In this document: positions 10,541 to 30,911 of the stretch, in pieces | How the letters are laid out: every line of letters begins with the position of its first letter | Position numbering within the stretch: the stretch's first letter is position 1 | Origin: Deltaproteobacteria bacterium | Lineage (GTDB): Bacteria > Desulfobacterota > Desulfobacteria > Desulfobacterales > Desulfobacteraceae | Reading direction: 5' to 3' | NCBI GenBank assembly: GCA_013151635.1 | Contig: JAADHV010000094.1 | Span: 1 to 32,655 of the forward strand | Length of the DNA stretch: 32,655 nucleotides | Translations under genes and position numbers: made by a program | Notes under the pieces: model-generated | What the model was told of the DNA's origin: nothing | The model's input: the letters and a program-made list of their open reading frames with translations, nothing else | The model's database searches: none

Positions 10541-12364
10541 ATGACTGACCACACCCCGAGGCTTCTGGATGCACTGGATGCCTTTGAAGAAGGTATTTAT
10601 ATTATCAATGATGATTATACTGTTGAATATATGAATAAATTCATGAAGGAGCTGTTTGGCGACGGGGTTGGCCGGAAATGCCATGAAGTTTTGACAGGCT
10701 CTGGTAAGCCTTGTGACTGGTGTAAATATGATGAGGTTTTTATTAATAATGAAACACATCACAGCGAGGTTTATGTTGAATCCGTTGATAAAATATTTTC
10801 ACTGTCAGAGCTTCCTGTAACCAACCAGGACGGAACAAAATCAAAACTTTCACTATATCGCGATATCACCCACAATGTACGGCAGGAAGAGAAGCTCAAA
10901 TCTTCCAGAGCAAGCTATCAAAGACTTTTTAAGCATGTCGGATGCGGAGTGTTTATCAGCAGTAAGAAAGGGCGGTTTTTAGATGTTAACCCAACGCTTT
11001 TAAAAATGCTCGGGTATCAGGACAAGGAAGAATTTCTTTCCCTTGACCTTGCAAAAGATATCTATTTAAAACCTGAGGACAGGCGTGAATATACTGAAAT
11101 TATAGAAAAGAAAGGTCATGTCGTTGATTACGAAGTAAAGTGGAGGCGCAGGGACGGGCACATCCTTCATATTTTATTGACCAGTAATGTCAGGTATGAC
11201 CCCAAGGGTGATATCCTGGGGTATGAAGGTATCGTTGTGGACCAGACCCGGAGAAAAAGGCATGAAAATGAATTAAAAAAAGCCCATGATTTCCTGGACC
11301 AGATAATCACTAGTTCTCCCAATGCCGTTATGGCAATGGATATGCAGGGGACTATAAAATTATGGAACCAGGGGGCTGAGGACATTTTCGGGTTTGATTC
11401 TTCCCAGGTAATCGGAAAAATGAGCATCCAGCAGATTTTTTCCAGCAAGGTGGCCAAGAAGATCATGGAGATGATGAGGGATGAAAAGTTTGGGGGCAGG
11501 GGCAAACTCAATTCCTATCCACTGAATTTTAAAAAGGATAACGGCGAGATTGTTGAAGGAAATCTTTCCACGAGCATTCTTTATGACGGGAAGGGAAAGG
11601 AACTTGCAACAGTAGGCCTGTTTGTCGATTTAAAAGAGCGGCTTCAAACGGAAAGAGAACTCAGCGCTGCAAGGCAGCATTTGCTCCAGTCTGAAAAGCT
11701 TGCTGCCATGGGAAGGCTCACTTCCCAGATTGCCCATGAACTGAATAACCCGCTTTTTGGTATTATGAATACACTTGAATTGATGAAAACCGAAATTTCA
11801 CCTGAAAATAAGAGGCGGAGACTCCTTGATATGTCTTTGTCCGAGATCGAAAGGCTTGCTGATATGCTCAAAAAGATGCTGTCCTTTTCAAAGCCGGACC
11901 AGGAGGAGCGCCAAAAAATAGACATTAATGTGGTTATAGATGAGCTGATGTTGTTATATGAAAAAAGGTTCAGGGAAAACAGTATTAAAGTCAGCCTTGA
12001 CCTTATTGAGGAACCGGGGGTCATCATTGCCTCCAGGGACCAGTTGCGCCAGGTTTTTATTAATATGTTTTCCAATGCCATGTATGCCATGCCTGATGGG
12101 GGCAGCCTTGAAATAGCAACTTCAGTTATTTCAGGAAAGCTTTATATTATTATCAAGGATACCGGTACGGGAATAAAGCCTGAGCATATTAAAAAGATTT
12201 TCGATTCTTTCTTTACCACAAAGACGGAAAGCGTTCAGGGAGTAGGCCTGGGCCTGTCAGTCTGCTATGGCTTTATCCGGGACCATGGCGGGGATATTGT
12301 TGTTGAATCAGAATTCGGCCAATGGTCAAAGTTCACCATCATGCTTCCTCTTGAAGGGGAGTAA
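10541..12364 (+). CDS. Cytoplasmic three-PAS sensor histidine kinase
   Basis: A 607-residue protein without membrane segments. Three PAS domains lie at about 5-115, 125-240 and 250-365; the first carries a Cys-rich stretch (KCHEVLTGSGKPCDWC) common in anaerobe PAS proteins that could bind a metal, haem or a redox cluster. HisKA has its phospho-acceptor in IAHELNNPLFG (about 400), and HATPase_c has NMFSNAMYAM, DTGTGI, DSFFTTK and GVGLGLS. It has a strong ribosome site (AAAGGAGAT). Only the 196-bp spacer separates it from the HTH-receiver gene and the metF/hdr operon, so it is the natural candidate kinase for that receiver. A redox or metabolite signal tied to one-carbon metabolism is inference. 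Confidence 0.92.
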   Translation: MTDHTPRLLDALDAFEEGIYIINDDYTVEYMNKFMKELFGDGVGRKCHEVLTGSGKPCDWCKYDEVFINNETHHSEVYVESVDKIFSLSELPVTNQDGTKSKLSLYRDITHNVRQEEKLKSSRASYQRLFKHVGCGVFISSKKGRFLDVNPTLLKMLGYQDKEEFLSLDLAKDIYLKPEDRREYTEIIEKKGHVVDYEVKWRRRDGHILHILLTSNVRYDPKGDILGYEGIVVDQTRRKRHENELKKAHDFLDQIITSSPNAVMAMDMQGTIKLWNQGAEDIFGFDSSQVIGKMSIQQIFSSKVAKKIMEMMRDEKFGGRGKLNSYPLNFKKDNGEIVEGNLSTSILYDGKGKELATVGLFVDLKERLQTERELSAARQHLLQSEKLAAMGRLTSQIAHELNNPLFGIMNTLELMKTEISPENKRRRLLDMSLSEIERLADMLKKMLSFSKPDQEERQKIDINVVIDELMLLYEKRFRENSIKVSLDLIEEPGVIIASRDQLRQVFINMFSNAMYAMPDGGSLEIATSVISGKLYIIIKDTGTGIKPEHIKKIFDSFFTTKTESVQGVGLGLSVCYGFIRDHGGDIVVESEFGQWSKFTIMLPLEGE

Positions 12365-12560: not shown

Positions 12561-13133
12561 ATGGAAGACACGTTGACTGTATTCACCGCAAGCAAATACT
12601 GCAATGTTTCGTCTAAAACCATCATTAATTGGGTTGAAGCCGGGCATATTAAGGCATATCGCACAGTTGGCGGACATCGCAGGATAAAAAAGTCCGACCT
12701 TGAAACCTTTATGCGAAGCCAGGGAATTCCTATTCCCGAAGATAAAGATGCAAGTGCCAGAAAAAAGATTCTTGTCGTAGATGATGACATGATCATTGTT
12801 GAGTCAATCGTGCAGGCCCTGGAAGAAGATAAGTTCGACTATGAGGTGATTTCAGCTTCGGACGGTTTTGAGGCAGGTCTGCAGGTTAATCATTTCCATC
12901 CCGATCTATTAATTCTTGACATCATGATGCCGGACATAAAAGGGTATGAAGTCTGTAAAAAGATTAAGGCGAATGAGCAGACAAAAGACACTAAAATTAT
13001 CGTCTTGTCCGCATACCTGGATGATGACAAATTCGCAAAGATGAAAGAGAACGGTGCGAATGTCTGTTTTTCAAAGCCATTACCCCTTTCCAAGCTCAAG
13101 GATGAAGTGGCCAGATTACTGGGATTAAAATAG
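12561..13133 (+). CDS. HTH (MerR/excisionase-like)-receiver fusion response regulator
   Basis: A 190-residue protein with an inverted layout for a response regulator. A small winged HTH of the MerR/BldC/excisionase class comes first (residues 5-55, with YCNVSSKTIINWVEAGHIKA and TVGGHRRIKKSDLETFM), then a receiver (about 70-188) with acidic pair VVDDDM, phospho-acceptor Asp in LLILDIMMPD (about 116) and the SKPL lysine. Phosphorylation of the C-terminal receiver would control DNA binding by the N-terminal HTH. The ribosome site is AAAAGGAGG. It is 14 bp upstream of metF-like gene 1, so it is probably the first gene of the metF/hdr operon and autoregulated through the inverted repeat just upstream. 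The partner kinase is probably the PAS kinase before it. Confidence 0.88.
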   Translation: MEDTLTVFTASKYCNVSSKTIINWVEAGHIKAYRTVGGHRRIKKSDLETFMRSQGIPIPEDKDASARKKILVVDDDMIIVESIVQALEEDKFDYEVISASDGFEAGLQVNHFHPDLLILDIMMPDIKGYEVCKKIKANEQTKDTKIIVLSAYLDDDKFAKMKENGANVCFSKPLPLSKLKDEVARLLGLK

Positions 13134-14040: not shown

Positions 14041-15327
14041 ATGGCAGAGGCAATTAAGATTGATAATCTTGACATTGAATTTAAAGATGAGGTTCTATCA
14101 AAGGTACCTGATGCAAACTTTGATTTATGTCTGACATGCGGAACCTGCACAGGAGGGTGTGCAGCTTCAGAGCTTATGGGCATGGATCCAAGAAAGCTCA
14201 TAAGAATGTTGAACTTAGGGTTGGATGAGGAAGTATTGAAAACCGACTGGAAATGGGTTTGCAGTATGTGTGGACGATGCGTGGCAGCCTGTCCCATGAA
14301 AATCAATGTGCCGGCACTGATCTTTAATTTGCGTGGCAGTGTTCCCAGGGAAAAACGTCCCAAAGGAATCCTTGGTTCATGTGACCAGCATATTCGAACC
14401 GGCAGTGCCATGGGTGCAAAAAAGGATGATTTCACATTTACAGTATTGGATGTGGCTGAGGAAATCCGGGAAGACCATCCCGGGTTTGAGGATTTGCAGG
14501 TGTCAGTGGACCGGGCCGGTGCCCATATGATACTGAACCAGAATTCCAGGGAACCTGTGACCGAGCCTGAAGAAATGGGGCCTTTATGGAAAATTCTCCA
14601 TACCGTGGGTGCGGACTGGACTTATCCTTCCGTGATGTGGGCCGGAGAAAATTATTGCATGTTCATGGCCGATAATGAGGGCTGGAAATATATTATTGAG
14701 GAGTTTGTTCACCATGTGGATAATAATTTAAAAAGCCCCCTTGTGGTCAATACTGAGTGAGGGCACTCTTACTTTGCAATCCTGGAAGGACTGCGAAAAT
14801 TCAAGATACCTCATAAGTTTGAATTGACTACTATTATTGAGCTTTATGCCCAGTGGATAAAAGAGGGTAAGCTGAAAGTAAACGCTGACTGGAACAAGGA
14901 TATCGGCGCAAAGTTTACAGTGCAGGATCCCTGCAATATAGGAAGAAAAAGCGGGTCCAATAAAATAGTAGATGATTTAAGATTTGTGATTAAAACCATT
15001 GTGGGCGAAGAAAATTTTATTGATACCATGCCCAACCGGGGTAATAACTACTGCTGTGGCGGTGGTGGCGGTGCGTTGCAGGCCGGATTTCCTGATGAGA
15101 GAAGGGCCTATGGCAAGACAAAATTCAACCAGATCGCGGCAACCGGTGCGAATTACGTGGTCGCGCCCTGCCATAATTGTCACGGTCAGATAGAGGACAT
15201 TGGCGAATATTATGGCGGTAATTATCATGTTGTTCATTTGTGGACGATCATATGCCTTGCCATGGGCGTACTTGGTGAAACTGAACGAACCTATCTTGGG
15301 CCGGACCTGGCCCGTGTGGGACTATAA
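14041..15327 (+). CDS. HdrC-HdrB fusion (HdrD/DsrK-like) selenoprotein, UGA at 14758-14760 read as Sec
   Basis: The frame is 428 residues with one in-frame TGA at codon 240 and remains coding on both sides, so I call one protein. The HdrC part (1-100) has two [4Fe-4S] motifs: C30/C33/C36/C40 and C74/C77/C80/C84. The HdrB part has one complete CCG motif: C298 (DPCNIGR), C338-C339 (NYCCGGGGG) and C377/C380 (APCHNCH), fitting C-X39-CCG-X36-CxxC for a non-cubane [4Fe-4S] cluster. The first CCG repeat has lost its cysteines. The UGA stands in NTE-Sec-GH, where DsrK/HdrD relatives have Cys in a TECGH context. A SECIS-like hairpin lies 13-38 bases downstream. It passes electrons between HdrA and MetVF. 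Ribosome site GGGAG; 15 bp before hdrA. Confidence 0.9.
14773..14798 (+). promoter_or_regulatory. SECIS-like hairpin of hdrCB
   Basis: The upper stem UCCU (14780-14783) pairs with AGGA (14787-14790) around the 3-nt loop GGA. One A/C mismatch then leads to a lower stem UUUGCA/UGC-AAA with one bulged G. The loop starts with G and lies 23 nt after the UGA, as in bacterial SECIS elements recognised by SelB. Folded by eye only. Confidence 0.75.
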
Positions 15328-15342
15328 AAAGGAGGGATCCAA

Positions 15343-18300
15343 ATGGCCGAAAAAGGTAGAGGGTCGGTAATGGTTGTCGGTGCCGGCATTGCAGGTATCC
15401 AGGCATCGCTGGATCTGGCGGATTCAGGATATTTTGTATATCTGGTGGATAAAAATACAGCCATTGGCGGAACAATGGCACAACTGGACAAGACCTTCCC
15501 CACAAACGACTGCTCAATGTGTATCATATCCCCGAAACTTGTCGAGGCAGGACGTCATCTCAATATTGAGCTTATGACCATGACCGAAATCAAAGACGTT
15601 ACGGGAGAAGAAGGGGACTTTACCGTTAAACTAAGGGAAAAGCCAAGGTTTATTGATCTTGATAAATGTACTGCCTGTGGCGAGTGTTCCGAGGTGTGCC
15701 CTGTCGAGCTTCCCAGCCAGTTTGACGAAGAGCTCCGGGACAGGAAAGCGGCATTCAAGCTGTATCCCCAGGCAATGCCGTCAGGCTTTGCCATTGAGAA
15801 AAAAGACAAGGCCCCGTGCCGGTTGACATGTCCGGCCGGGTTGAATGTCCAGGGGTATGTCCAGATGGTTAAACAGGGTAAATATAAGGAGTCCCTGGAA
15901 ATTATCATGGAACAGCTCCCGCTGCCGGGAGTCCTGGGACGGGTCTGCCCCCATGAATGTGAGGATGCCTGCAGAAGATGCCAGGTGGATGAACCTGTTG
16001 CCATACGGGATCTGAAGCGTCTTGCCGCAGACAGTTTTGACCCCAGGGAAGTAAAAATAAAATGTGCGGAAAAAATCGGTAAAAAAGTGGCTGTCATCGG
16101 TTCCGGCCCTGCCGGGCTGTCAGCCGCGTATCACCTGGCAAAGCAGGGCGTTGATGCGACCATATTTGAAGCACTGCCGCAGGCCGGCGGTATGCTCAGG
16201 GTCGGTATCCCTGAACACCGCCTTCCAAGGGAAGTGCTGGACAAGGATATTGAAGTTGTGACCAACCTGGGTGTTGAACTCAAGCTGAATGTCCGGCTCG
16301 GGGAAGATTTTACCGTGGACAGCCTCATGGCTGACGGTTATGATGCGGTTTTCCTGGGCCTGGGTGCCCACAAAGGGATTGAGCTGGGTATTCCGGGTGA
16401 AGATCTTGAAGGCGTGCGTCAGGGAGTTGATTTTCTAAGAGAGCTTAACCTGACCGGAACAACGCAGGTGGGTAAAAAAGTATGCATCATCGGCGGCGGT
16501 AATGTGGCCATTGATGTGGCAAGGTCTGCGGTTCGGCTGGGTGCTGATGAAGTCACTATCCTGTATCGCAGGACAAGAAAAGAAATGCCTGCCTGGGAAG
16601 AGGAAATCTGTGCAGCAGAAGATGAAGGCGCAAAAATCACTTATCTTGCAGCCCCCCAGAAACTTATTGAAGAAAACGGTCATGTCAAAGCCTTAAGGGT
16701 TATTAAAATGGAACTGGGTGAGCCTGATTCCTCAGGCAGGAGACGTCCTGTTCCCACACCCGGCAGCGAATATGACATTGAAATTGACCAGCTTATTCCA
16801 GCCATTGGCCAGCGGCCGGATCTGTCGGCCATTGAAAAACTTGCAGATTTGAAAGTCAGTAAATGGAACACCGCAGAGGTCAACCCTGTCACCCTTGCCA
16901 CGGACAAAGAAGGTGTTTTTGCAGGCGGCGATGTCCAGACAGGGCCTGGTGTTGCCATTGGTGCCGTTGCAGCCGGTATGGAAGCTGCAGAATCTATTGT
17001 CCGGTACCTTAAGGGTTTGGACATGGAAGAAGGCAGGCAGCTTCCGGTTGTTGAAAATCCTTCCTTCCGCCCGGTACCCCAGGATATGGCACAGGTTGAC
17101 CGGTATAAAATGCCGGAACTTGCCGCAGCCCAGCGGGCCGGTAATTTTAATGAGGTGGAACTGGGATACGGGCAGGAAGATGGTCAAAAAGAGGCGGCAA
17201 GGTGCCTGAACTGCGGATACTGCTCAGAGTGTATGCAGTGTGTGGATGCCTGTCTTGCCAATGCCGTGGACCACTCCATGCAGGGCCGGGAACACAAAAT
17301 CAACGTGGGTGCTGTTATTATGGCATCTGGATTTACGCCTTTTGAACCTAGCCAGATGGTCTCATACTGTTACGGGCACAGCCCCAATATCATGACCAGT
17401 GTAGAATTTGAACGGGTCCTTTCTGCATCAGGCCCTTATGGCGGTCATCTTGTAAGGCCTTCCGATAATGTGGAACCTGAAAAAATCGCCTGGCTCCAAT
17501 GTGTCGGATCAAGGGACATTAACAAGGGGGACCATTCTTATTGTTCAGGTGTCTGCTGCATGTATGCCAACAAACAGGCCGTTATTGCAAAGGAACACAG
17601 TGACAAGGGGCTGGATGCCGCCATTTTTTTCATGGATATGAGAACCCATGGCAAAGAATTTGATAAATATAATATCCGGGCCCAGGACAACAGTGGTGTC
17701 AGGTTTGTGAGATCCAGAATTCATTCTGTTTTCCCGGAACCAGGTGATAAATACAGGATTGTTTATTCCACTGAATCAGGAAACACGGTTGAGGAGATGT
17801 TTGACATGGTGGTCCTTTCCGTGGGATTGTCGCCTAATAAAGATGCCCAGGAGCTTGCAGATAAAATCGGCATAGAATTAAATGATCACGGCTTTGCCAG
17901 GACCAATAATCTTTCACCGGTCTGCACAAGTAAAAAAGGTGTTTATGTCTGCGGAACCTTTCAGGAACCCAAAGATATTCCGTCATCGGTTATGGAGGCA
18001 TCCGCCGCAGCCTCGACAGCATCCATGGGATTAAAGGACGGCAGATGGAGCCAGACCCGCACAAGGGAGCTTCCCCCTGAAAGCGATTTTGCAGGGCAGG
18101 CCCCCAGGATAGGTGTCTGGGTCTGCAACTGTGGTATCAACATCGGTGGGATAGCAGATGTGCCGGCAGTAAGGGATTATGCCAGGACACTGCCATATGT
18201 GGTCCATGTGGAAGATAACCTTTTTACATGCTCCCAGGATTCCCAGGATCATATGAAAGAGGTAATAAAAGAGCAGAAACTCAACCGGGTGGTTGTGGCT

Positions 18301-19776
18301 TCGTGTTCCCCGAGAACTCACGAGCCCTTATTCCAGGAGACCATCAGGGATGCCGGTCTGAACAAATATCTTTTTGAAATGGCAAACATCCGTGATCAGA
18401 ATACCTGGGTCCATATGAAGGAGCCGGACAAAGCAACAAATAAAGCCAAAGACCTGGTTCGTATGGCCATAGCCAAGGCAGCCCTTGTGGAACCCCTGCA
18501 CCAGGTCAGTCTGGATATAAAAAAATCCATTCTTATCGTGGGTGGCGGTGTGGCCGGTATGGAAGCGGCGCTCAGCGCTGCAAACCAGGGAGTTAATGTC
18601 CACCTGGTTGAGAAAACTGACCTGCTGGGCGGGATTGCAAGGAACCTGAATGCTACATGGCAGGGAGAAAAAATACAGGATTATCTTAAGGAACTTGTTG
18701 ACAGGACCAGTGCCAGCGATTCCATCAACCTGTATCTTGATTCCGAGGTTGAGGCGTTTACGGGTTCTATGGGAAATTTTGTTACCACCATAAAAGCCAA
18801 TGGGGATGGACAAAAGACAGCCATTGAACACGGCGCTGCCATTCTTGCCACCGGGGGAAAGGAATACAGGCCCAAAGAGTATCTTTATGGTGATCATCCG
18901 GATGTTCTGACACATCTGGACATGGATGCTGCTTTGCGGGAGGGCGACAGCCGTGTTGAAAAAGCAAAGGCTGTTGTTTTTATCCAGTGCGTAGGATCTA
19001 GAAACGATGAAAATCCGTTTTGCAGCAAGGTTTGCTGCACCCATAGCTTAAAGAGCGCCATTGCTCTTAAGGCAATAGATAGAAGAAAAAGAGTTTATGT
19101 GGTTTACCGGGACATCAGATCCTATGGTTTCAGGGAAGATCTTTACAAGAAGGCCAGGGAACTGGGTGTTCTTTTTATCCGGTATGACCTTGAAAAGATG
19201 CCGGGGTTGAGAGAAAATTCCAATAAAGAACTTGAGCTGTCCGTCATTGACCATGTTCTTCAGATGCCGGTAACCATTCGCCCTGATCTGGTAGTGCTGG
19301 CATCGGGTGTTGTTCCTGCAGATAATAAGACCTTGTTTGAAAAATTCAAAGTACCCACAAACAATGAAGGTTTTCTTGTCGAGGCCCACGCAAAACTGCG
19401 GCCCGTTGATTTTGCGTCTGACGGACTTTTTGTGGCGGGTCTTGCTCATTATCCCAAACCCCTTGAAGAAAGTATTGCCCAGGCAAGGGCCTCTGTGGCA
19501 CGTGCCATGAGGATTCTTTCAAGGGATTCATTGATGGTGGGCGGTGTTGTGGCAGAGGTTACACCTGAAAAATGTGCGGTCTGCCTTACCTGTGTCAGGA
19601 CCTGTCCTTATGACATACCATATATTCATGAGGACGGGTATGCAAAAATTGATGCGTCCGAGTGTCATGGGTGCGGTGCCTGTGTCGCGGAATGCCCGGG
19701 CAAGGCGATTCGCCTGAACCATTTTACTGATGAGCAGGTTATGGCGAAGACTGATGCACTTTTTGAAGAGGCATAA
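15343..19776 (+). CDS. Giant HdrA with internal GltD module (putative bifurcating flavoprotein, 1477 aa)
   Basis: The order of modules is as follows. Residues 1-150: HdrA-type FAD half (VVGAGIAGIQA, NDCSMCIISPKL) with a ferredoxin motif C109-C119. Residues about 155-610: a complete GltD/NfnB-like module, with two Cys motifs (PCRLTCPAG and CPHECEDACRRC), FAD loop GSGPAGLSA at 253 and NAD(P)H loop GGGNVAIDVA at 384. About 618-640: a further Cys cluster. About 640-920: HdrA remainder. About 1060-1400: second HdrA FAD domain (IVGGGVAGMEA, CSKVCCTHS). About 1410-1455: two ferredoxin motifs. HdrA proteins carry the bifurcating FAD; the GltD insertion supplies an NAD(P)H site within the polypeptide. 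Strong ribosome site AAAGGAGG. mvhD follows 40 bp downstream. Cys, not Sec, is used throughout. Confidence 0.93.
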   Translation: MAEKGRGSVMVVGAGIAGIQASLDLADSGYFVYLVDKNTAIGGTMAQLDKTFPTNDCSMCIISPKLVEAGRHLNIELMTMTEIKDVTGEEGDFTVKLREKPRFIDLDKCTACGECSEVCPVELPSQFDEELRDRKAAFKLYPQAMPSGFAIEKKDKAPCRLTCPAGLNVQGYVQMVKQGKYKESLEIIMEQLPLPGVLGRVCPHECEDACRRCQVDEPVAIRDLKRLAADSFDPREVKIKCAEKIGKKVAVIGSGPAGLSAAYHLAKQGVDATIFEALPQAGGMLRVGIPEHRLPREVLDKDIEVVTNLGVELKLNVRLGEDFTVDSLMADGYDAVFLGLGAHKGIELGIPGEDLEGVRQGVDFLRELNLTGTTQVGKKVCIIGGGNVAIDVARSAVRLGADEVTILYRRTRKEMPAWEEEICAAEDEGAKITYLAAPQKLIEENGHVKALRVIKMELGEPDSSGRRRPVPTPGSEYDIEIDQLIPAIGQRPDLSAIEKLADLKVSKWNTAEVNPVTLATDKEGVFAGGDVQTGPGVAIGAVAAGMEAAESIVRYLKGLDMEEGRQLPVVENPSFRPVPQDMAQVDRYKMPELAAAQRAGNFNEVELGYGQEDGQKEAARCLNCGYCSECMQCVDACLANAVDHSMQGREHKINVGAVIMASGFTPFEPSQMVSYCYGHSPNIMTSVEFERVLSASGPYGGHLVRPSDNVEPEKIAWLQCVGSRDINKGDHSYCSGVCCMYANKQAVIAKEHSDKGLDAAIFFMDMRTHGKEFDKYNIRAQDNSGVRFVRSRIHSVFPEPGDKYRIVYSTESGNTVEEMFDMVVLSVGLSPNKDAQELADKIGIELNDHGFARTNNLSPVCTSKKGVYVCGTFQEPKDIPSSVMEASAAASTASMGLKDGRWSQTRTRELPPESDFAGQAPRIGVWVCNCGINIGGIADVPAVRDYARTLPYVVHVEDNLFTCSQDSQDHMKEVIKEQKLNRVVVASCSPRTHEPLFQETIRDAGLNKYLFEMANIRDQNTWVHMKEPDKATNKAKDLVRMAIAKAALVEPLHQVSLDIKKSILIVGGGVAGMEAALSAANQGVNVHLVEKTDLLGGIARNLNATWQGEKIQDYLKELVDRTSASDSINLYLDSEVEAFTGSMGNFVTTIKANGDGQKTAIEHGAAILATGGKEYRPKEYLYGDHPDVLTHLDMDAALREGDSRVEKAKAVVFIQCVGSRNDENPFCSKVCCTHSLKSAIALKAIDRRKRVYVVYRDIRSYGFREDLYKKARELGVLFIRYDLEKMPGLRENSNKELELSVIDHVLQMPVTIRPDLVVLASGVVPADNKTLFEKFKVPTNNEGFLVEAHAKLRPVDFASDGLFVAGLAHYPKPLEESIAQARASVARAMRILSRDSLMVGGVVAEVTPEKCAVCLTCVRTCPYDIPYIHEDGYAKIDASECHGCGACVAECPGKAIRLNHFTDEQVMAKTDALFEEA

Positions 19777-19816: not shown

Positions 19817-20242
19817 ATGACCCAAGAATTTGAACCCAGGATAATCGCTTTTTGCTGCCAATATTGAGCATATGCAGCCGGGGACCTGGCAGGTTCCATG
19901 AGACTGTCCTATCCTGCTGATATAAAAGTTATTCAGCTGCCATGCACTGGAAGAGTGGATATCCTTCATCTTCTGAATGCGATTGAGGACGGGGCGGACG
20001 GTGTGTATGTTGCAGGATGTCTTGAAGGTGAGTGTCATTACATCGAGGGTAATCTGAAAGCCAGAAAAAAGGTTGAATACGTTAAAAAGACCCTGGCAGA
20101 ACTTGGTATCGAGCCTGAAAGGGTGGAAATGTATAACCTTTCTTCAGCACAGGGTGCCCGGTTTGCCCAGATTGCAAATGAAATGGTGGATAAAATAAAG
20201 GAGTTGGGACCGACTCCTGTGAAAAATAATCATGCGGCTTGA
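19817..20242 (+). CDS. mvhD: MvhD/FrhD-like iron-sulfur subunit, selenoprotein (UGA at 19865-19867)
   Basis: A 141-residue protein reading through an in-frame TGA at codon 17. Only upstream extension through this codon restores the N-terminal family signature: IIAFCCQY-Sec-AYAAGDLAG, where relatives have CxxC-Y-GADLAG. The remaining signature cysteines lie in LPCTGRVD and VAGCLEGECHY, and a DG segment (EDGADGVYVAG) is intact. MvhD carries a [2Fe-2S] cluster and, in hydrogenase-Hdr complexes, relays electrons to HdrA. No hydrogenase gene is present here, so it probably bridges HdrA to MetVF or to another donor. The ATG is supported by AACGGAGG. A start at the internal ATG (19898) would discard the signature and lacks a good ribosome site. 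metV follows 33 bp on. Confidence 0.9.
19881..19897 (+). promoter_or_regulatory. SECIS-like hairpin of mvhD
   Basis: GGGACCU (19881-19887) pairs over seven positions (one G-U) with AGGUUCC (19891-19897) around the loop GGC. The loop is G-first and 20 nt after the UGA, in the range for bacterial SECIS elements. Folded by eye. Confidence 0.75.
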
Positions 20243-20275: not shown

Positions 20276-20953
20276 ATGATAGTAGCAGATCGGAAATCTC
20301 TTAAAGAAATATTGGCGATGGTGGAAGACAATAAAAAGATCCTCATCGCCGGGTGTAAAGGGTGCGTCACTGTCTGCAATGTCGGGGGATTAAAAGAAGT
20401 TGAAATACTGGCCTCCTCCCTGAAAATAGCAAGAAAGAAACAGGGAAACGATATTGACATTGATATTAAGGTTTTGGAAAGACAGTGTGACACCGAATAT
20501 GTGGCAGAAATCAGTGATATTGTAGGTGATTATGATGCAGTACTCTCTCTCGCCTGTGGCGTAGGCCCCCAGTTTTTGTCTGAAATGTATAAAGACCAGA
20601 TATTTTATCCGGGTGTCAATACCACCTTTTTCGGCGGTGCGACCCGGCATGGGGTATGGGAGGAAAGGTGCGCAGGTTGCGGAACCTGTGCCATCCATAA
20701 TTTCGGCGGCCTGTGTCCCATTGCAAGGTGCGCCAAAAGCCTTATGAACGGGCCCTGCGGCGGATCATCCAAAGGAATTTGCGAAGTGAACAAAGATACG
20801 GAATGTATCTGGGATGCGATTGTCAAAAAGAAAATGGAAGCCGGGAAACTTGAAGACCTGATCGGTGTAAAAGGGATAAAGAACTGGAGAACGGCAAGGG
20901 ATGGCGGGCCCAGGAGAAGTATCAGGGAAGAACTGGTTCAGGGAAACATATAA
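20276..20953 (+). CDS. metV: MetV, iron-sulfur/zinc subunit of methylene-THF reductase
   Basis: A 225-residue protein of the MetV type (the MTHFR C-terminal zinc-finger family). The N-terminal part (1-125) resembles a CoB/CoM-type fold with ILIAGCKGCVTVCNVGG; the C-terminal part (about 135-190) has the signature cysteines CAGCGTC, GGLCPIARCAKSLMNGPCGG and the later ICEVNKDTECIWD. MetV pairs with MetF in acetogens and related anaerobes, carries [4Fe-4S] clusters and transfers electrons to the MetF flavin, replacing direct NAD(P)H use. It sits between mvhD and metF, as expected for a MetVF-Hdr complex. The start is preceded by AGAGGTG; metF starts 21 bp downstream. Intact, no UGA. Confidence 0.9.
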   Translation: MIVADRKSLKEILAMVEDNKKILIAGCKGCVTVCNVGGLKEVEILASSLKIARKKQGNDIDIDIKVLERQCDTEYVAEISDIVGDYDAVLSLACGVGPQFLSEMYKDQIFYPGVNTTFFGGATRHGVWEERCAGCGTCAIHNFGGLCPIARCAKSLMNGPCGGSSKGICEVNKDTECIWDAIVKKKMEAGKLEDLIGVKGIKNWRTARDGGPRRSIREELVQGNI

Positions 20954-20974: not shown

Positions 20975-21907
20975 ATGAGTGAGCTCAAATCAGGCAGTAA
21001 TCTTGAAAAGGTTCTGAATGCCGGACATTTCGCATTTACAGGAGAATGCGGACCACCAAAAGGAGCTAATGTCGCATACCTGAAAGAAAAGTTTGAGTAC
21101 CTGAAAGGCAATGTGGATGCGGTAAATGTGACCGATAACCAGACTGCGGTAGTCAGGATGTCGTCCGTTGCAGGTTCGGCACTTATGATTGGAGAAGGAC
21201 TTGAACCTAATTTCCAGATGGTATGCAGGGACCGGAACCGCCTGGCCATGATGAGTGATATTTTAGGGGCCTATGCCCTTGGTATCAGGAACATGCTCTG
21301 CCTTTCCGGCGATCATCAGACATTTGGAAACCATCCTGAAGCAAAAAATGTTCATGACATTGATTCCATGCAGCTTATATCCATGGTAAAAAAAATGCGG
21401 GATGAAGGAAAGTTTTTAAATGACCAGGATATTGACGTGCCTCCTAAAATGTTTATCGGTGCGGCTTGTAATCCGTTTGCTGACCCCTATGAATACAGGG
21501 TATACAGGCTTGCCAATAAAATAGAGGCCGGGGTTGATTTTATCCAGACCCAATGTATTTTTAATATGGACAAGTTCAGGGATTTTATGAAAAAAGCCGT
21601 GGACATGGGACTCCATGAAAAATGCTATATCCTGGCAGGGGTAACCCCTATGAAAAATGCCGGTATGGCTAATTTTATGTCAAAGTTCGTACCTGGAATG
21701 GATATTCCCGATTCCCTTATCAAGCGCCTCAAAGGTGTGGATAAAAAAGACCAGGCAGAAGAGGGCATACGTTTTGCCTTGGAGCAGATTGAAGAATTCA
21801 AGGAAATGGAGGGCGTGGCAGGTGTCCATCTTATGGCCATTGAATGGGAACACATGGTTCCTGAAATTGCCCAAAGGGCAAATGTGCTGCCAAGACCTGT
21901 TGTCTGA
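20975..21907 (+). CDS. metF: Methylenetetrahydrofolate reductase MetF (MetV-associated)
   Basis: A 310-residue protein with the family's TIM barrel: an N-terminal FTGECGPPKG strand with conserved Glu, VNVTDNQ, the folate/FAD signature MVCRDRNRLAM (about 85), LCLSGDHQ, GAACNPFADPYEYRVYR and DFIQTQCIFNMDKF. It reduces 5,10-methylene-THF to 5-methyl-THF, a step of the Wood-Ljungdahl pathway in either direction. The MetV partner just upstream indicates electrons arrive through iron-sulfur clusters rather than NAD(P)H bound by MetF. The canonical Cys in CRDRN distinguishes it from the first MetF copy in this operon. Good ribosome site AAAGGAGAG. It is the last gene of the operon, followed by a terminator hairpin. 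Confidence 0.93.
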   Translation: MSELKSGSNLEKVLNAGHFAFTGECGPPKGANVAYLKEKFEYLKGNVDAVNVTDNQTAVVRMSSVAGSALMIGEGLEPNFQMVCRDRNRLAMMSDILGAYALGIRNMLCLSGDHQTFGNHPEAKNVHDIDSMQLISMVKKMRDEGKFLNDQDIDVPPKMFIGAACNPFADPYEYRVYRLANKIEAGVDFIQTQCIFNMDKFRDFMKKAVDMGLHEKCYILAGVTPMKNAGMANFMSKFVPGMDIPDSLIKRLKGVDKKDQAEEGIRFALEQIEEFKEMEGVAGVHLMAIEWEHMVPEIAQRANVLPRPVV

Positions 21908-21985: not shown

Positions 21986-22783
21986 TCAGCCTTTCTGCAA
22001 AGTTTTTTCAAGGGCAATAATTGCAGCGCCGAGGGCACCTGTGATATCCGGGGTTTCAGGGGTGTGGACTTTGTCAATGTTCATGCTTCTGGCAATGGCT
22101 TTTACAACTCCTTTGTTTCTTGCCACACCTCCTGACATTGCAACGGGAAGGCCGCTTATGTCTTGCGCCACTCTTTTAACAAGGGAATTTGTCCTTGCTG
22201 CAATGGCCCGGTTAAGGCCTTTTGCAATCTCTTTTTGTCCGGTCCCGCCTGCAATAAGGGAAACCACCTCACTTTCGGCAAATACTGTACACATGCTGCT
22301 CAGGACAAGGTCGCTTGTTGCCCCTTTATCAAGCTGTCCCAGTTCATTTATATCAACTTCCAGTGCCCTTGCCATGGCTTCCAGGAACCTGCCTGTGCCT
22401 GCGGCACATTTGTCATTCATTGCAAAATCCACTACATTCCCGTCAGGATCAAGGCGCATGGCTTTGCTGTCCTGCCCGCCTATATCAATAAGAATCCTTG
22501 TTCCGGGAATCATATGTTTTATCCCTTTTGCATGACAGGTGATTTCTGTGACTGCGCCGTTCCTTTCTTTTACCCTTGTTCTGCCATATCCTGTGGAAAT
22601 AATCGAGCTGATATCCTTTTCCATGATCCCTGATGCATCAAGGACGTTTTTTTTTACCCGGGCAATGGCTTCCATGTTGTTTACCCCTGTGGGAATGACC
22701 GAAGAGGACAAAATATTCTTTTTTTCATCAATCAGTACGGCATCACAGGAAAGACTGCCTATGTCTATACCAAGGAAAATCAT
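21986..22783 (-). CDS. ATP-dependent activator of 2-hydroxyacyl-CoA dehydratase/benzoyl-CoA reductase (HgdC/BadG family)
   Basis: A protein of 265 residues from the preferred ATG at 22783, which has AGGAGA eight bases upstream; an in-frame ATG at 22804 has none. The ASKHA ATPase fold is clear: phosphate-1 motif FLGIDIGSLSCDAVL at the N-terminus, phosphate-2 LIDIGGQDSKAM, the cluster-binding cysteines in MNDKCAAGTGRFLE and LSSMCTVFAESEV (one per subunit, bridging a [4Fe-4S] cluster in the homodimer) and adenosine motif AMSGGVARNKG. It uses ATP hydrolysis to push a low-potential electron into the double iron-sulfur protein encoded just upstream. It is the last gene of the marR operon. Which substrate the system serves is not visible. 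Confidence 0.93.
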   Translation of the reverse strand: MIFLGIDIGSLSCDAVLIDEKKNILSSSVIPTGVNNMEAIARVKKNVLDASGIMEKDISSIISTGYGRTRVKERNGAVTEITCHAKGIKHMIPGTRILIDIGGQDSKAMRLDPDGNVVDFAMNDKCAAGTGRFLEAMARALEVDINELGQLDKGATSDLVLSSMCTVFAESEVVSLIAGGTGQKEIAKGLNRAIAARTNSLVKRVAQDISGLPVAMSGGVARNKGVVKAIARSMNIDKVHTPETPDITGALGAAIIALEKTLQKG

Positions 22784-22825
22784 TTTTATTTTCTCCTGAA
22801 TCAAAGTTTTTAAAAAAAGGTTTTT

Positions 22826-24034
22826 TTAAGAAAGCATTTCAATAAAAGCTTCCACCCTTGTTTCTATCTGGCCTTTGGCAAGGTTCCTTGAATCCACGCA
22901 ATCTATTTCAAGGTTCAGCACAGGCACATTAATGTCTTTAAGGCCTTTTGAAATAAGGCCTCTTGCACCTGTTCCCTGGCGGCATCCCCAGTGGCAGGGA
23001 TTAATTGCCCCGTCAATCCGGTAAGCTTTTGCAAGGTTCTGCATCTGCCTGATCCGCTCGGCCGTGCCCATGCTGAAAGGAATAGAGATCATTCTTTTTG
23101 CAATGCTCTCAAAAGGGTTGTCCGGGTCCATTGGCTCCCAGGTGACATTGTTCAGTTCATCAACGACTATTTTTGCGCCCAGGTCATCTAACATCTCGTT
23201 TATGGGAAAAGGGTATTGAATCCTGTTTTGTATCCACATCAGCCTTATTTTTTCTTTTGAAGCATGATGAAGGCCTTTTTTAATCCTGCGGGCAAGTTCG
23301 TCTTTAAAAGCCCGGCAGATATCAATTCCCTGTTTTGTTCCCATTAAAAGAGCCACGACCGTACCAAAATCCTTTAAAAATTTGTTGTCAACAGGGGAAG
23401 GCTTTGTCCTGGCAAGATCATATATCTCTTTTAAAAGACTGGTTGACGTGTTGAAATTTTCAAGGGCAAAGGAAAGCCTTTGTTTTGACAGCGGCCTTTT
23501 TGTATGATCAGACACAAAGCGGGTCATCTCTTCAAGCTGGGTCGCAAGATATTTTACAGCATCTTTTGTATAGTTCTGCGGTACATTTAAAATAAAGAAA
23601 TCTTTTTTATATTGGTGTGCAAAATTTTCCACAATGGCAAGTCCGGCAGTACATGGGCTGCTTGTCCCTATTATAAAATCAGGTTCAGGCATGGCATTTT
23701 CCAATACAGCCCCCATGACAGCCCTGTGGTAAGCACATGAATCCGTTGCAAAACCTGCGTCTTCCGCTTTTTCAAGGAAAAAGCCCGCAGTATCGGTTGA
23801 AGAGAGCATGGCGCCGACAAATTCAACAAAACAGGAGGTAACTCCCATGGCACTGAGAAGATCAAAAGGCGCTGTCACTCCACACCATGCAATGTTCTCA
23901 TCCCTGGAATACAGCTTTTTCCCCAGTTTGGAAATTGCCAGGACATATTTTTTCCGGGCATTGATGCCGTCAGGATCATGGTTGAGTTTTTCTGTTATTC
24001 CTTTTACAATATTGTCAAAATGTTCATACATCAT
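22826..24034 (-). CDS. 2-hydroxyacyl-CoA dehydratase/BCR-family subunit (HgdB/DCCP-like), 402 aa
   Basis: A protein of the 2-hydroxyacyl-CoA dehydratase D-component family. Candidate cluster ligands are Cys in GVTSCFVEF, GTSSPCTAGLA and INPCHWGCRQG, and in EIDCVDSRN near the end; the CHWGCRQ segment is typical. Such proteins form dimers carrying [4Fe-4S] or double-cubane clusters and catalyse radical dehydration of hydroxyacyl-CoA, aromatic-ring reduction, or small-molecule reduction in double-cubane cluster proteins. The partner subunit ends 2 bp before this ATG and the activator follows, so the three work together. No CoA-transferase or beta-oxidation gene is nearby, so the substrate is open. 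Confidence 0.88.
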   Translation of the reverse strand: MMYEHFDNIVKGITEKLNHDPDGINARKKYVLAISKLGKKLYSRDENIAWCGVTAPFDLLSAMGVTSCFVEFVGAMLSSTDTAGFFLEKAEDAGFATDSCAYHRAVMGAVLENAMPEPDFIIGTSSPCTAGLAIVENFAHQYKKDFFILNVPQNYTKDAVKYLATQLEEMTRFVSDHTKRPLSKQRLSFALENFNTSTSLLKEIYDLARTKPSPVDNKFLKDFGTVVALLMGTKQGIDICRAFKDELARRIKKGLHHASKEKIRLMWIQNRIQYPFPINEMLDDLGAKIVVDELNNVTWEPMDPDNPFESIAKRMISIPFSMGTAERIRQMQNLAKAYRIDGAINPCHWGCRQGTGARGLISKGLKDINVPVLNLEIDCVDSRNLAKGQIETRVEAFIEMLS

Positions 24035-24036
24035 AA

Positions 24037-25092
24037 TTACACCTCCAGCATTTCCGCAAAAGCTTCGATTCTTGTCTGTTGCTGCCCCATGCAGCCCATG
24101 GTGCAGTCACCTTCCAGCATTAGAAAAGGAATGGATTCTTTTTGAAGGGCCTTTCGTATCATTGGAATTCTGGCAAGATAGGGATCGCAGAATTTTAAGG
24201 TAAACCCGATAACCCCTTTTGCATTAGTTTCTTTTGCCTGTTGAACAATATTCATAGCAATGCTGCCTGGTTTTGAAGTATCCATGGTTCTTGCACAAGA
24301 CGTATTGTTAAGATACGAGGCCGCAATGGATTTAAAAATATTATCGCAGGCATTTTTATCCACAGGAGTGATGAATCTTGAGGATGTGCAGAAATCGTTT
24401 CCAGTCACATTAATATTCCATTCTTCAAAAAGATCATACACCTTTGGATCAAACAAAAGATTTCCAAAAAGAAATACAGGGGCTGCGCCCTGCCTGGCAT
24501 CCCCTTGTGGATCAATCTTGTTTTGTGCCATTAAAAGGGCTTTGTCCACGGACTTTGTTGCCGCCGTATTAATGATCTCCTGGATCAGTGAGGCATGGCC
24601 TTTGGTATAAGCTTTGGACATTTTCCCCGAAGATTTTTTAACCAGGGCTGCAAGAAGGTTCCATGTGTCGATTCTATTGTTTACCCGGGCTGTCATTTCT
24701 TTTGAGGAACATGTTTTATTGTTCCATTTGAACAGGGTTTCTGTAAGTCGCTTATATTCTTTTGACAAAAAATCAAGGCTTAAACTGTTTATTCCCGAAG
24801 GAAGATCCAGAAAAATAATTTTATCGTCAGGCCTTGCCTCATGCCATGCATCGGAAAGCCGCCGCATGGAATCACACGAATTTATAAAAACCATGCCTTC
24901 AAGATCAGGCAGATCGCCTGCAATGGCTCGGTCAAGCACTTTTTTGACATGGGGGCATAAATTGTCATGGAGCAGGTTTCCAGAAAGGTCAGGTGCCTTT
25001 GATTCGGGAAAAACCCTGAAAGGAGAAAACCCTGCAGCTTCGATTAAAGGAACCGGTGTATAGGCACAGGTAAATCCGATTTTTTTATTCAT
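24037..25092 (-). CDS. 2-hydroxyacyl-CoA dehydratase/BCR-family second subunit, 351 aa
   Basis: A second, shorter member of the same family. The N-terminus IGFTCAYTPVPLIEAAGFSPFRV is the usual opening. Conserved cysteines are in FINSCDSMRR, GNDFCTSSR, LKFCDPY and the C-terminal GDCTMGCMGQQQTRIEAF, which parallels the other subunit's LEIDCVDSRN...QIETRVEAF. With its neighbour it would make a heterodimer fed by the activator. Its ATG overlaps the MarR stop by 4 bp, and the partner gene begins 2 bp after its own stop, so the genes are tightly coupled. At 351 residues it is shorter than classical subunits (about 380-430). A role outside CoA chemistry, as in double-cubane cluster proteins, is possible. 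Confidence 0.87.
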   Translation of the reverse strand: MNKKIGFTCAYTPVPLIEAAGFSPFRVFPESKAPDLSGNLLHDNLCPHVKKVLDRAIAGDLPDLEGMVFINSCDSMRRLSDAWHEARPDDKIIFLDLPSGINSLSLDFLSKEYKRLTETLFKWNNKTCSSKEMTARVNNRIDTWNLLAALVKKSSGKMSKAYTKGHASLIQEIINTAATKSVDKALLMAQNKIDPQGDARQGAAPVFLFGNLLFDPKVYDLFEEWNINVTGNDFCTSSRFITPVDKNACDNIFKSIAASYLNNTSCARTMDTSKPGSIAMNIVQQAKETNAKGVIGFTLKFCDPYLARIPMIRKALQKESIPFLMLEGDCTMGCMGQQQTRIEAFAEMLEV

Positions 25093-25541
25093 TTTACATC
25101 CTCCCTGCCACAGTTTAAAAGAATGGTGCGAAGTACATTTTTAGTTGTTTCAATGTCTTTTTCAGGTATGGTGTTAAATGCTTTTTCAAGTGTGTGCGAT
25201 ACAACTCTTGTTGCGGAAACTTCAGCGTTCACACCTTTTTTAGTCAAATGAATCCTGTTTGCCCTCCTGTCATTGGGGTCTGGCTTTCGTTCTACAAGCC
25301 CGTCCCTTTCCATGCGGTCTAAAAGCCCTGTCATGGTGGATGGCTCCAGTCCCGCCCTCCTGCCAACCTCGTTAGCCTTAAGACCGTCTTCATTCCACAA
25401 GGAGAGTAAAACCCCAAGGTATGCAGGCCTTATGGTGCTGATATCTTCTTTGATAAATCCTTTTTTTAATTGGGACGTAACAGTCAGCGTGGCCCTGGAC
25501 ATTAAGTAATACGGGCAATCCGGCGGAAGTGGGAAATTCAT
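25089..25541 (-). CDS. MarR-family transcriptional regulator
   Basis: A protein of about 150 residues from the ATG at 25541, which has AAAGGAAA just upstream; an in-frame ATG at 25586 would add 15 residues that overlap the promoter, so I prefer the shorter form. It has the MarR winged HTH: LKANEVGRRAGLEPSTMTGLLDRMERDGLV as recognition unit and the wing RKPDPNDRRANRIHLT. MarR dimers repress by binding palindromes and release on ligand binding. It is the first gene of the operon with the two dehydratase-type subunits and the activator, so it probably represses them and itself. The ligand may be the CoA ester or aromatic compound handled by the system, which is inference. Confidence 0.9.
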   Translation of the reverse strand: MNFPLPPDCPYYLMSRATLTVTSQLKKGFIKEDISTIRPAYLGVLLSLWNEDGLKANEVGRRAGLEPSTMTGLLDRMERDGLVERKPDPNDRRANRIHLTKKGVNAEVSATRVVSHTLEKAFNTIPEKDIETTKNVLRTILLNCGREDVK

Positions 25542-25557
25542 TTTTTTTCCTTTCTTG

Positions 25558-25592
25558 CGTATTATATTTATACGGATTATACGCATACGTAA
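25558..25592. promoter_or_regulatory. Palindromic operator candidates for MarR
   Basis: Two palindromic motifs overlap the promoter: CGTAT-N7-ATACG (25558-25574) between the -10 and the start codon, and TACG-N4-CGTA (25580-25591) inside the spacer. Both share the ATACG/CGTAT half-site, as expected for a dimeric MarR repressor blocking its own promoter. Confidence 0.55.
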
Positions 25593-29507: not shown

Positions 29508-30014
29508 TTAACAAACCCTGCACTCTGCTTGTTGTTCTGAAAGAATATCAGTAATCGGAATATTGATCCTTGTTTCTTCACCGTTATTATCTATTTCTTT
29601 CATCACATCATCGAAGAAGCTTTTCATCTTATCGGGTGAAACCCCCTTGAATGTTGCATAAAAAAGTCTAATCATTCGATCATTTGACTTATCAATGATT
29701 TGCTTATTATTTTCCCATCTTGAAAGAGTTGATTTGTCGATACCGATATACTCTGCAAATGCCTTTGCATTTAGCCCGGCGTTTTTTCTTAAATATTTTA
29801 TTTCTCGGCCTTTGAGAAAAGTTTTCTTTTTAATTAAATAAAGTGCAATCACTAAATTCAATTCTATAATTGCAGGAATAGAGGCAAAATATTCTCCGCA
29901 CTCACATCGATAAACACTTACATCACCCAACCAAACATTATCAAGGCCAGACTCAATATAGTGATAAAGCTCTTTTGACTCTTTCATGTTTGAATTACAT
30001 TCGTGACATTTCAT
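29508..30014 (-). CDS. MqsA/YgiT-type antitoxin (zinc finger plus XRE HTH)
   Basis: A 168-residue protein. The N-terminal zinc-binding domain has C3/C6 (CHEC) and C37/C39 (CECG), the YgiT/MqsA arrangement. A DNA-binding XRE helix-turn-helix covers about 68-115 (LRKNAGLNAKAFAEYIGIDKSTLSRWENNKQ). The tail (120-168) is polar and ends in Cys residues. In the MqsRA family the zinc domain binds the toxin and the HTH represses the operon. The gene starts 13 bp after the DUF4258 stop with the ribosome site AAGGAGG inside the gap, so it is second in a toxin-antitoxin operon. Toxin-first order is typical for this family. Confidence 0.87.
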   Translation of the reverse strand: MKCHECNSNMKESKELYHYIESGLDNVWLGDVSVYRCECGEYFASIPAIIELNLVIALYLIKKKTFLKGREIKYLRKNAGLNAKAFAEYIGIDKSTLSRWENNKQIIDKSNDRMIRLFYATFKGVSPDKMKSFFDDVMKEIDNNGEETRINIPITDILSEQQAECRVC

Positions 30015-30027
30015 AGCATCCCCCTCC

Positions 30028-30309
30028 TTAATATACAGTGATACATCTTACAGTATGGCAATGCTCATAAATACCAGCTATAAATACAAGGTCTTCTCCA
30101 TCAATATCTTTGCCAATCACCTTGCATTGCCAGTTATCATGTTCTTTTTTATATTCAATTTCTGTGACCTTGCCCCAAAGAAAAACATTTAACACATCAT
30201 CTGTGGTGATCTGCCGTTCTTTCATCCGCTCACGACAGTGTACTGATTGTTGAAAACAACCAATTTGAGCAAACTCACGCAAACACTCTTTTGCTTCGTC
30301 CTTTGTCAT
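30028..30309 (-). CDS. DUF4258 toxin of a type II toxin-antitoxin pair
   Basis: A 93-residue protein with the DUF4258 pattern: an N-terminal helix, HCRERMKERQITTDDVLNVF, GKVTEIEY, WQCKVIGKDIDGEDLVFIAG and the C-terminal HTVRCITVY strand. The fold is thought to be related to small RNase-type toxins, with the His/Arg-rich HCRERMKER segment a likely functional site; activity is inference. It sits directly before an MqsA-like antitoxin, which strongly supports the toxin call. No good ribosome site precedes the ATG, and a -10-like GATAAT touches the start codon, so the start is a little uncertain. Confidence 0.8.
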   Translation of the reverse strand: MTKDEAKECLREFAQIGCFQQSVHCRERMKERQITTDDVLNVFLWGKVTEIEYKKEHDNWQCKVIGKDIDGEDLVFIAGIYEHCHTVRCITVY

Positions 30310-30322
30310 ATTATCGGTTTGA

Positions 30323-30362
30323 GTTGATCCAAAGTCAACAAAAAAAATGATTTGAAGTCAAC
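30323..30362. promoter_or_regulatory. Operator-like repeats upstream of the toxin-antitoxin operon
   Basis: AAGTCAAC occurs twice in direct orientation (30332-30339 and 30355-30362) with a 23-bp period, about two helical turns. The first copy is part of an inverted repeat GTTGA-N7-TCAAC (30323-30339). Its position before the toxin gene fits an autoregulatory site for the XRE antitoxin. Confidence 0.55.
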
Positions 30363-30508
30363 TTTTACATCTGTGCACAATATATTGTATTTTTAAAAAT
30401 CTTCACATACCTTTGATAGGAAAATTGCCAAATTAAAAAAAATAATTTTGTTATATAATCATATAGTTTCGGCTTTAATCAAGGGGAAAAATAAAAACCG
30501 GCCAATAT

Positions 30509-30775
30509 TTATCCAGGTGACCGGCACCCTGCACGAAAGGAAAGGTTTAGGCCTATTTGATAACACTCATAACGGGTTTTCTGATTCCTTCTCAGAAGAT
30601 TATCAAGCTTAAATTCACAGAAATATTTTTCTTTTTCCTTCTCGGCAGGAAGAATCCTGTTACAAGCCTGTTCTATCCGGGTCAACCATGGAACAAGAGT
30701 ATGAACTGCAAAAGTTCTGTTTTGTTCTGTAACGTTTGAATATGTGGATCTGTCATGATCTTGAACCAAGTTCAA
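30509..30775 (-). pseudogene. Phage portal protein remnant (HK97 type, C-terminal piece)
   Basis: The minus frame from about 30775 to the stop at 30509 encodes a C-terminal slice of an HK97-family portal protein: VPLNLVQDHDRSTYSNVTEQN, VPWLTRIEQACNR, FKLDNLLRRNQKTRYECYQIG. The portal ring is the DNA gate of tailed phages. The N-terminal two thirds and the rest of the prophage are missing. Around 30760 the frame joins a fragment of another phage gene, so this is a deletion scar. The apparent ATG-initiated reading frame from 30871 is misleading, as its first third is out-of-frame sequence from that neighbour. Confidence 0.7.
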
Positions 30776-30911
30776 AGGCACCCTCGATATCGTCACTGGT
30801 GACGTCGGCAAAATCTGCACCAGCTGCCGTGTCAGATTCTTGAAGAATTGGTGTGAGATAGTTTGAGCCATCGACTCCGGTTATCGCTCCGACTGCAACG
30901 GACAACACGCT
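30753..30911 (-). pseudogene. Prophage virion-protein fragment abutting the portal remnant
   Basis: The minus frame, different from the portal frame, reads VLSVAVGAITGVDGSNYLTP, then ILQESDTAAGADFADVTSDD and IEGAFELGS, ending at TGA (30753-30755). The pattern resembles small head or head-tail proteins of tailed phages, which normally lie downstream of the portal and capsid genes. Only about 50 codons remain. I recognise the style but cannot name the family. Confidence 0.5.

Follow-up and report, generated by a model that had tools for sequence, protein, structure and literature searches.

The 32,655-nucleotide contig JAADHV010000094.1 of a Desulfobacteraceae genome (assembly GCA_013151635.1), here called the window, encodes at positions 15343 to 19776 a protein of 1,477 amino acids, HdrL, which is an HdrA with a GltD module inside its first TrxR-like domain (the operon described here lies entirely on the forward strand). 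This architecture is real and well conserved, and the anatomy, conservation, loop type, and gene order of the HdrL operon can be read directly from the DNA. Our preferred reading, which we regard as modestly probable, is that the operon encodes a reversible type IV (Hdr-type) methylene-tetrahydrofolate (methylene-THF) reductase (MTHFR), in which HdrL would link NADP(H), MetVF, and a third carrier in a sulfate reducer with a Wood-Ljungdahl pathway. The fusion architecture is already known in other anaerobes; new are the loop-based cofactor prediction, a probable selenocysteine (Sec) in HdrD, and a distinct MetF-like family.

The HdrL open reading frame (ORF) begins with ATG and has no internal stops, and its translation contains three FAD-type glycine motifs (VGAGIAG, GSGPAG, and GGGVAG). 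Profile searches with Pfam and NCBIfam matched PRK12771 at residues 151 to 658, Fer4_20 at 156 to 233, Pyr_redox_2 at 247 to 545, and an HdrA2 model in four stretches. An earlier note on this DNA, made from the letters alone, had described an HdrA N-terminal segment followed by a GltD module and a second HdrA. The segment is present but is not a separate fragment, as residues 1 to 152 and 619 to 901 form a single TrxR-like HdrA domain (TrxR1) split by the GltD insert. The first part of TrxR1, with the first [4Fe-4S] motif (C109-C119), is encoded at 15343 to 15798; the GltD module (approximately residues 156 to 640, with FAD and NADP-type loops, GGGNVA and YRR at 408 to 410) at 15808 to 17262; and the second cluster motif (C627-C637) with the rest of TrxR1, including E690 and K744, at 17197 to 18045. 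As the note had stated, a second HdrA unit with two ferredoxin motifs follows (approximately residues 915 to 1477; positions 18085 to 19773): it consists of a canonical HdrA N-domain, TrxR2 (D1195 and K1237), and a single ferredoxin domain at the C terminus, in which the CxxCxxCxxxC motif occurs twice. When aligned with 5odc and 8rvu, this unit proved to have no canonical inserted ferredoxin domain. The GltD insertion is shown directly by insert-less HdrA paralogues of the same genome, because they match residues 7 to 152 and then 619 to 1470 only a few bases apart (for example, C49:25867-26304 and C49:26308-28857).

The GltD module itself, placed between the two cluster motifs of TrxR1, resembles StnC and NfnB. 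It aligns with 8oh5, 9bov, and 9n5u at about 405 to 440 bits, and its cluster motif, GRVCPHECEDACRR, is closer to the 9bov and 8oh5 (StnC) chains than to NfnL. A predicted structure of residues 1 to 910 (mean predicted local distance difference test [pLDDT] score of 79.5, predicted template modeling score of 0.58) was of high confidence in GltD and of low confidence in the ferredoxin insert; its GltD part superimposed on NADP(H)-bound NfnL (5jca) with a root mean square deviation of 1.8 Å over 427 columns.

Searches for relatives found 163 named loci, of which 80 were kept; together with the two copies of the host genome (4.21 Mb in 136 contigs; the second full fusion, C112:33043-37443, is 50% identical to the window HdrL), these form a set of 82 sequences. 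The fusion is not a product of chance, since for 77 among the 80 named loci the alignment starts no later than residue 25 and ends no earlier than residue 1440, at 53 to 91% identity. For every cluster cysteine tested, all sequences of the set that cover the site have Cys there, except at C213, where only 38 of 82 do. The FAD and NAD(P) glycine loops of the window HdrL are intact, as judged from this comparison and from the alignment to NfnL, so that the loss of NAD(P)H-binding residues, named beforehand as the outcome that would speak against a working site, was not observed. Thus, ORF, profiles, cysteines, insert-less paralogues, and end-to-end loci all bear out the HdrA/GltD fusion of 1,477 residues. 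A survey of relatives, proposed beforehand for Desulfobacteraceae and run here on a sample of 198 genomes from the phylum, yielded end-to-end matches in no fewer than 70 of them, the host included; this is a lower bound obtained with a query start at or before residue 20 and an end at or beyond 1440, in-frame stops allowed, and two candidates scored per genome. The idea that the fusion is unusual was rejected on these grounds. The gene order of HdrL with MvhD-MetV-MetF, the setting that the note had pointed out, is found in the window and recurs in many relatives.

A marker pair for bifurcating HdrA flavins, E356/K409, has been described (PMC9430772; here and below, papers are cited for the excerpts available). 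Its equivalents in TrxR1 are E690/K744, and the pair is kept in 111 of 111 sequences (the 82 plus 29 further phylum loci) and in all of 40 additional, more distant copies that were examined separately, i.e., in 151 of 151. This upholds the bifurcation-type potential that had been suggested for the protein. In TrxR2 of the window HdrL, the corresponding residues are D1195/K1237; TrxR2 is devoid of the signature glutamate in 106 of the 111 sequences, the window included, and carries both E and K in only 4.

The second Rossmann loop of HdrL reads GGGNVA followed by YRRTRKEM, and that of NfnL (5jca) reads GGGNTA followed by the identical YRRTRKEM; the whole NAD(P) loop, ILYRRTRKEM, is the same in both proteins. 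In NfnB, the extra phosphate of NADP+ is bound by two conserved arginines (PMC6405883). NADPH is therefore the predicted cofactor of the window HdrL, because its loop is that of NADP(H)-bound NfnL and the arginines of NfnB bind the phosphate. At residues 409 and 410, 61 of the 82 HdrL sequences have RR and 21 have LE, a loop that we infer to be the NADH form; the second copy of the host genome is of the LE type. After addition of the 29 phylum loci and removal of 4 incomplete rows, the counts were 74 RR and 33 LE. On a tree without the 4 of 111 sequences that were not full length (one identical pair included), the RR/LE label requires at least three changes, a figure from a quick search with SH-aLRT support only.

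The two loop types differ in their neighborhoods, as seen across related loci, some of which are cut by contig ends: a MetF-like gene (>250 bits) accompanies 45 of 61 RR loci versus 0 of 21 LE loci, and HdrD accompanies 54 of 61 versus 2 of 21. Because of this relatedness and truncation, Fisher tests on these counts make the difference look stronger than it is. Weaker MetF-family matches (26 to 30%) stand beside six LE copies. That LE forms serve a different partner was rejected, as both loop types adjoin MvhD-MetV-MetF, and MetV is found at 40 of 61 RR and 17 of 21 LE loci (P = 0.27). A systematic pairing of one YRR and one LE copy per genome was rejected as well: in the phylum draw, 12 of 23 two-copy genomes were mixed (P = 0.53 against an assumed 0.44), 8 were RR/RR, 2 LE/LE, and 1 SR/RR, with the second copy of genome G111 left out. 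Among the host and nine named relatives, which are related genomes, 9 of 10 were mixed, and Desulfosudis has two RR copies. No description of the YRR/LE split was found in search listings of open-license papers or in the excerpts examined. The split offers an inexpensive test, in that R409/R410 forms should take NADPH and LE forms NADH, and the host genome has both.

The operon reads, in order, histidine kinase, response regulator, MetF-like protein, HdrD, HdrL, MvhD, MetV, and MetF, so that all six genes of a type IV MTHFR (metV, metF, mvhD, hdrA, hdrB, and hdrC, the last two fused) lie in one cluster. Upstream of HdrL, HdrD (14041 to 15327) is an HdrC-HdrB fusion related by profiles to TmcB, HmcF, and DsrK. 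It appears as two ORFs in the mechanical list but is probably a single selenoprotein read through one in-frame TGA (14758 to 14760; residue 240), a likely Sec codon in the context NTE-U-GHSY of this CCG-type protein. In 57 loci with an HdrD match, the own one included, this site is TGA in 49, Cys in 5, and uncovered in 3; the complete second CCG motif is kept in 56 of 56 rows above 250 bits. A hairpin resembling a Sec insertion sequence lies 3' of the TGA (14776 to 14794). Folding of 14758 to 14800 gave a z score of −2.8, and in 29 sequences 97% of cells were paired, and no shuffle or slid control reached the covariation score; two of five measures fell short, as 30 of 500 shuffles were as high for double-change pairs and 481 of 500 for further pair types. 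An Rfam search gave no credible match. A Sec-containing HdrD within a MetVF operon was likewise not found described in search listings of open-license papers or in the excerpts examined.

Downstream of HdrL follow MvhD (19817 to 20242), MetV (20276 to 20953; PF12225), and MetF (20975 to 21907; PF02219, a MetVF-type methylene-THF reductase). The corrected start of MvhD extends the listed ORF by 81 bases at its 5' end, and the in-frame TGA of MvhD (19865 to 19867; residue 17) probably encodes Sec as well: among 70 loci with an MvhD match, the own one included, the site is TGA in 47 and Cys in 23. For a hairpin at this TGA, folding was no better than for shuffled sequences. The note had named neither the TGA codons of HdrD and MvhD nor the NADPH-type loop of HdrL. 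The host genome contains SelB, AcsB/CdhC, and DsrA above the cutoff. The read-through frames of HdrD and MvhD correct gene models that are required for expression studies. In-frame TGA codons also occur at a DCxM-C/U site in HdrL itself in several loci (L066, L069, L071, L084, L098 to L101, L111, L112, and L121), which suggests that Sec and Cys are exchanged there too. The host's second copy on contig C112 has such a probable N-terminal Sec (DCTM-U), together with the LE loop, and is followed by MvhD, MetV, and MetF; neither HdrD nor a MetF-like gene was seen within the 17-kb region examined. In total, the host genome has four MetV homologues, on contigs C46, C77, C18, and C112.

How these proteins might act together can be outlined as follows. 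NADP(H) would react at the GltD flavin as a non-bifurcating input; in StnC, GltD no longer bifurcates and is a plain NADPH input to a separate bifurcating unit (PMC10482914), and it is by analogy to StnC that the GltD flavin may feed TrxR1. Electrons would pass through the clusters of GltD and of the inserted ferredoxin domain to the TrxR1 flavin (E690 and K744), which would split or join them between MvhD-MetVF (methylene-THF/methyl-THF) and the third carrier, reached via the C-terminal HdrA unit, the HdrD with its probable Sec, or both. When acetyl-CoA is oxidized completely, the enzyme would run as a confurcation, with methyl-THF and a low-potential donor, most likely ferredoxin, jointly reducing NADP+. 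This direction is attractive because the methyl-THF couple lies at about −200 mV (PMC9430772), a potential too high for reducing NADP+ without a further donor. Assembly of the complex, use of NADPH, reaction direction, and identity of the third carrier are what we infer from the operon and its relatives.

Several points weigh against this scheme. The reaction direction is not fixed by the sequence, and biochemical work on any Desulfobacterota HdrL was not found in the papers examined. For Moorella, it is reported that NADH did not drive an observable reduction of methylene-THF and that the second acceptor was not ferredoxin, menaquinone being proposed (PMC13040438). The Moorella HdrA is reported to oxidize NADH (PMC9430772). 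In fractions of T. phaeum, neither activity with NADPH nor an influence of ferredoxin was seen; the T. phaeum HdrA is only 31% identical to that of Moorella (PMC6895022). Within HdrL, GltD occupies the inserted domain of TrxR1, the canonical entry point for ferredoxin, and TrxR2 has no such domain. Half of the 40 more distant copies (20) retain the E/K pair in TrxR2, so that a single bifurcating flavin is no family rule, and TrxR1 as the only bifurcation-capable domain in the family was rejected on this and the 4 of 111 above. The structure model is weak outside GltD, and the placement of domains in it is not to be interpreted.

Among the alternatives, the same complex might use menaquinone or another membrane carrier as its third partner, with a redox loop in place of ferredoxin coupling. 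Such carriers have been put forward for both Moorella (PMC13040438) and T. phaeum (PMC6895022), and the Sporomusa enzyme is partly membrane located (PMC9430772). Still, in profile scans none of the operon's electron-transfer proteins was itself assigned to a membrane-complex family, no prediction of membrane segments having been run, and we consider this version unlikely. An outlet through Sec-containing HdrD to DsrC trisulfide or a related dithiol, which would tie methyl-THF oxidation to sulfate reduction, also seems doubtful to us. The kinship of HdrD to TmcB, HmcF, and DsrK, its invariable second CCG motif, the conserved Sec/Cys position, and DsrA in the genome argue for it, as do CCG proteins that have been linked to DsrC (PMC10553843). 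On the other hand, HdrD appears dispensable for the core reaction, because many HdrL-MvhD-MetVF operons have none nearby, the host's own second copy included. Equally tentative is the broader proposal of a cofactor-switchable hub with NADPH (YRR) and NADH (LE) forms of HdrL, both present in some genomes, the window form having MvhD-MetVF and Sec-HdrD as outputs plus an additional MTHFR-fold protein controlled by a dedicated two-component system; methyl-THF oxidation could then be run against either nucleotide pool, with electrons passed to a thiol or sulfur carrier.

We also consider it unlikely that the enzyme is a plain NADPH-dependent methylene-THF reductase, with the HdrA flavins as a mere electron relay. 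The missing glutamate of TrxR2 would fit, and in the excerpts examined coupling was demonstrated in no homologue (PMC9430772, PMC6895022, and PMC13040438), but the TrxR1 pair is kept without exception, and three flavin sites would be superfluous for a simple reductase. Bifurcation by the GltD flavin itself, as in NfnB, is very unlikely: fold and nucleotide site are close to those of NfnL and R293, which by counting along the alignment corresponds to StnC R239, does not vary in any of the 82 sequences, but the same arginine occurs in non-bifurcating StnC (PMC10482914), the cluster motif is StnC-like, and profile scans gave no match to an NfnA-like partner, a search that covered the operon proteins and not the remainder of the genome.

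The closest described counterpart of our type IV MTHFR candidate is known to us by description only. In M. thermoacetica, HdrA contains an additional TrxR into which a GltD that binds FAD and NAD(P)H is inserted, and the type IV MTHFR of this organism (MetFV-HdrABC-MvhD) shares with the window this split domain, a second HdrA without the inserted ferredoxin domain, and MetVF with MvhD (PMC9430772; a further Moorella precedent is in PMC5861303). The note had set the NAD(P)H site built into HdrA apart from such acetogen complexes; the site is intact, but it is not distinguishing, because Moorella HdrA follows the same plan and is reported to oxidize NADH. Differences from Moorella are the NADPH-type loop, as against reported NADH oxidation there, the D in TrxR2 (both TrxR domains have E and K there), the fused HdrC-HdrB with probable Sec, the probable Sec in MvhD, and the extra MetF-like gene. 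Fusions named HdrL were described in 2009 for Desulfobacterium autotrophicum HRM2 (PMC2702500), and the name recurs in PMC12142623. As described, HdrL1 to HdrL3 are likewise heterodisulfide reductase/glutamate synthase fusions beside mvhD, with Sec-containing Hdr and MvhD proteins, including hdrD4; their contexts differ (e.g., dsrABC after HdrL1), and coupling to MetVF is not stated in that excerpt (PMC2702500). Type III HdrA of methane-metabolizing archaea also has GltD near the inserted ferredoxin domain, but with a GxGxxG, NAD-preferring loop instead of GGGNVA and YRR, and with different partners (PMC12054007). Sporomusa StnC (StnABC) and NfnABC chains share the GltD-type NADPH input domain, which is joined to NuoG/NuoF-type modules there and to HdrA here. 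Chloroflexi DscP3, from another phylum, has hdrA-mvhD-metVF, a fused hdrC-hdrB, two metVF sets, and a two-component pair flanking metF_1, and the excerpt does not state a Sec-HdrD (PMC5736913). A metF-HdrABC neighborhood is reported for Seep-SRB1g (PMC10553843).

Upstream of HdrD, the operon begins with a PAS-containing sensor histidine kinase (10541 to 12364) and a response regulator with HTH_17 and receiver domains (12561 to 13133), both assigned by Pfam and NCBIfam, followed by the MetF-like protein of MTHFR fold (P0002; 13148 to 14026; PF02219, alignments, and model). Its structure model (pLDDT of 89.6) had MTHFR as its best PDB matches. In 34 family members, E17 and D107 are invariant and align with E and D of MetF; their counterparts in Escherichia coli MetF are, we assume, catalytic residues. 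The TQ position of MetF is TP in the MetF-like protein. By these sequence comparisons, the protein represents a conserved family distinct from MetF and tied to the two-component system: in all 18 regions examined from other genomes, each selected for presence of the MetF-like gene, the response regulator (59 to 79% identity) is the neighbor of this gene, and a histidine kinase homologue is found in 11 of 18, several regions being cut by contig ends.

The donor module beside the MetF-like gene is HdrL in 4 of the 18 regions (L164 to L167; MvhD in three and MetV-MetF in two) and a GltD-MetV-MetF group in 12. The latter was read as FdhA-NuoE-NuoF::GltD in L153 and L155 (profiled in L153), and matches to GltD-MetV-MetF and their spacing suggest the same module in the remaining clusters. 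No donor module was seen in two regions (L160 and L162). Since HdrL or the GltD-MetV-MetF group adjoins the same MetF-like gene and regulator in different regions, donor modules with GltD appear to be swapped next to the kinase, regulator, MetF-like, and MetVF set. A tie of the MetF-like protein to HdrD was rejected, because in other regions, with no HdrD present, it occurs next to HdrL (L164 to L167) or the FdhA-NuoE-NuoF::GltD module. The order MetF-like gene, GltD-bearing donor module, MetV, and MetF was seen in loci L152 to L158, L161, L163, L168, and L169.

GcvH was also considered as a partner of HdrL and rejected, as GcvH-like matches occur in 15 of 213 records searched, at varied positions. 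GcvH-like lipoyl-domain proteins are encoded just downstream of HdrL on the same strand in three loci only (L057, L060, and L077; in L060, an acetate-CoA ligase is next), and such genes lie at other positions in 12 other loci. Elsewhere in the window, on the strand opposite to the operon, positions 21986 to 25586 encode a 2-hydroxyacyl-CoA dehydratase-like pair, an activase, and a MarR-type regulator. Near the window end, also on the reverse strand (29508 to 30871), lie a fragment of a phage portal and an HTH protein resembling MqsA-type antitoxins.

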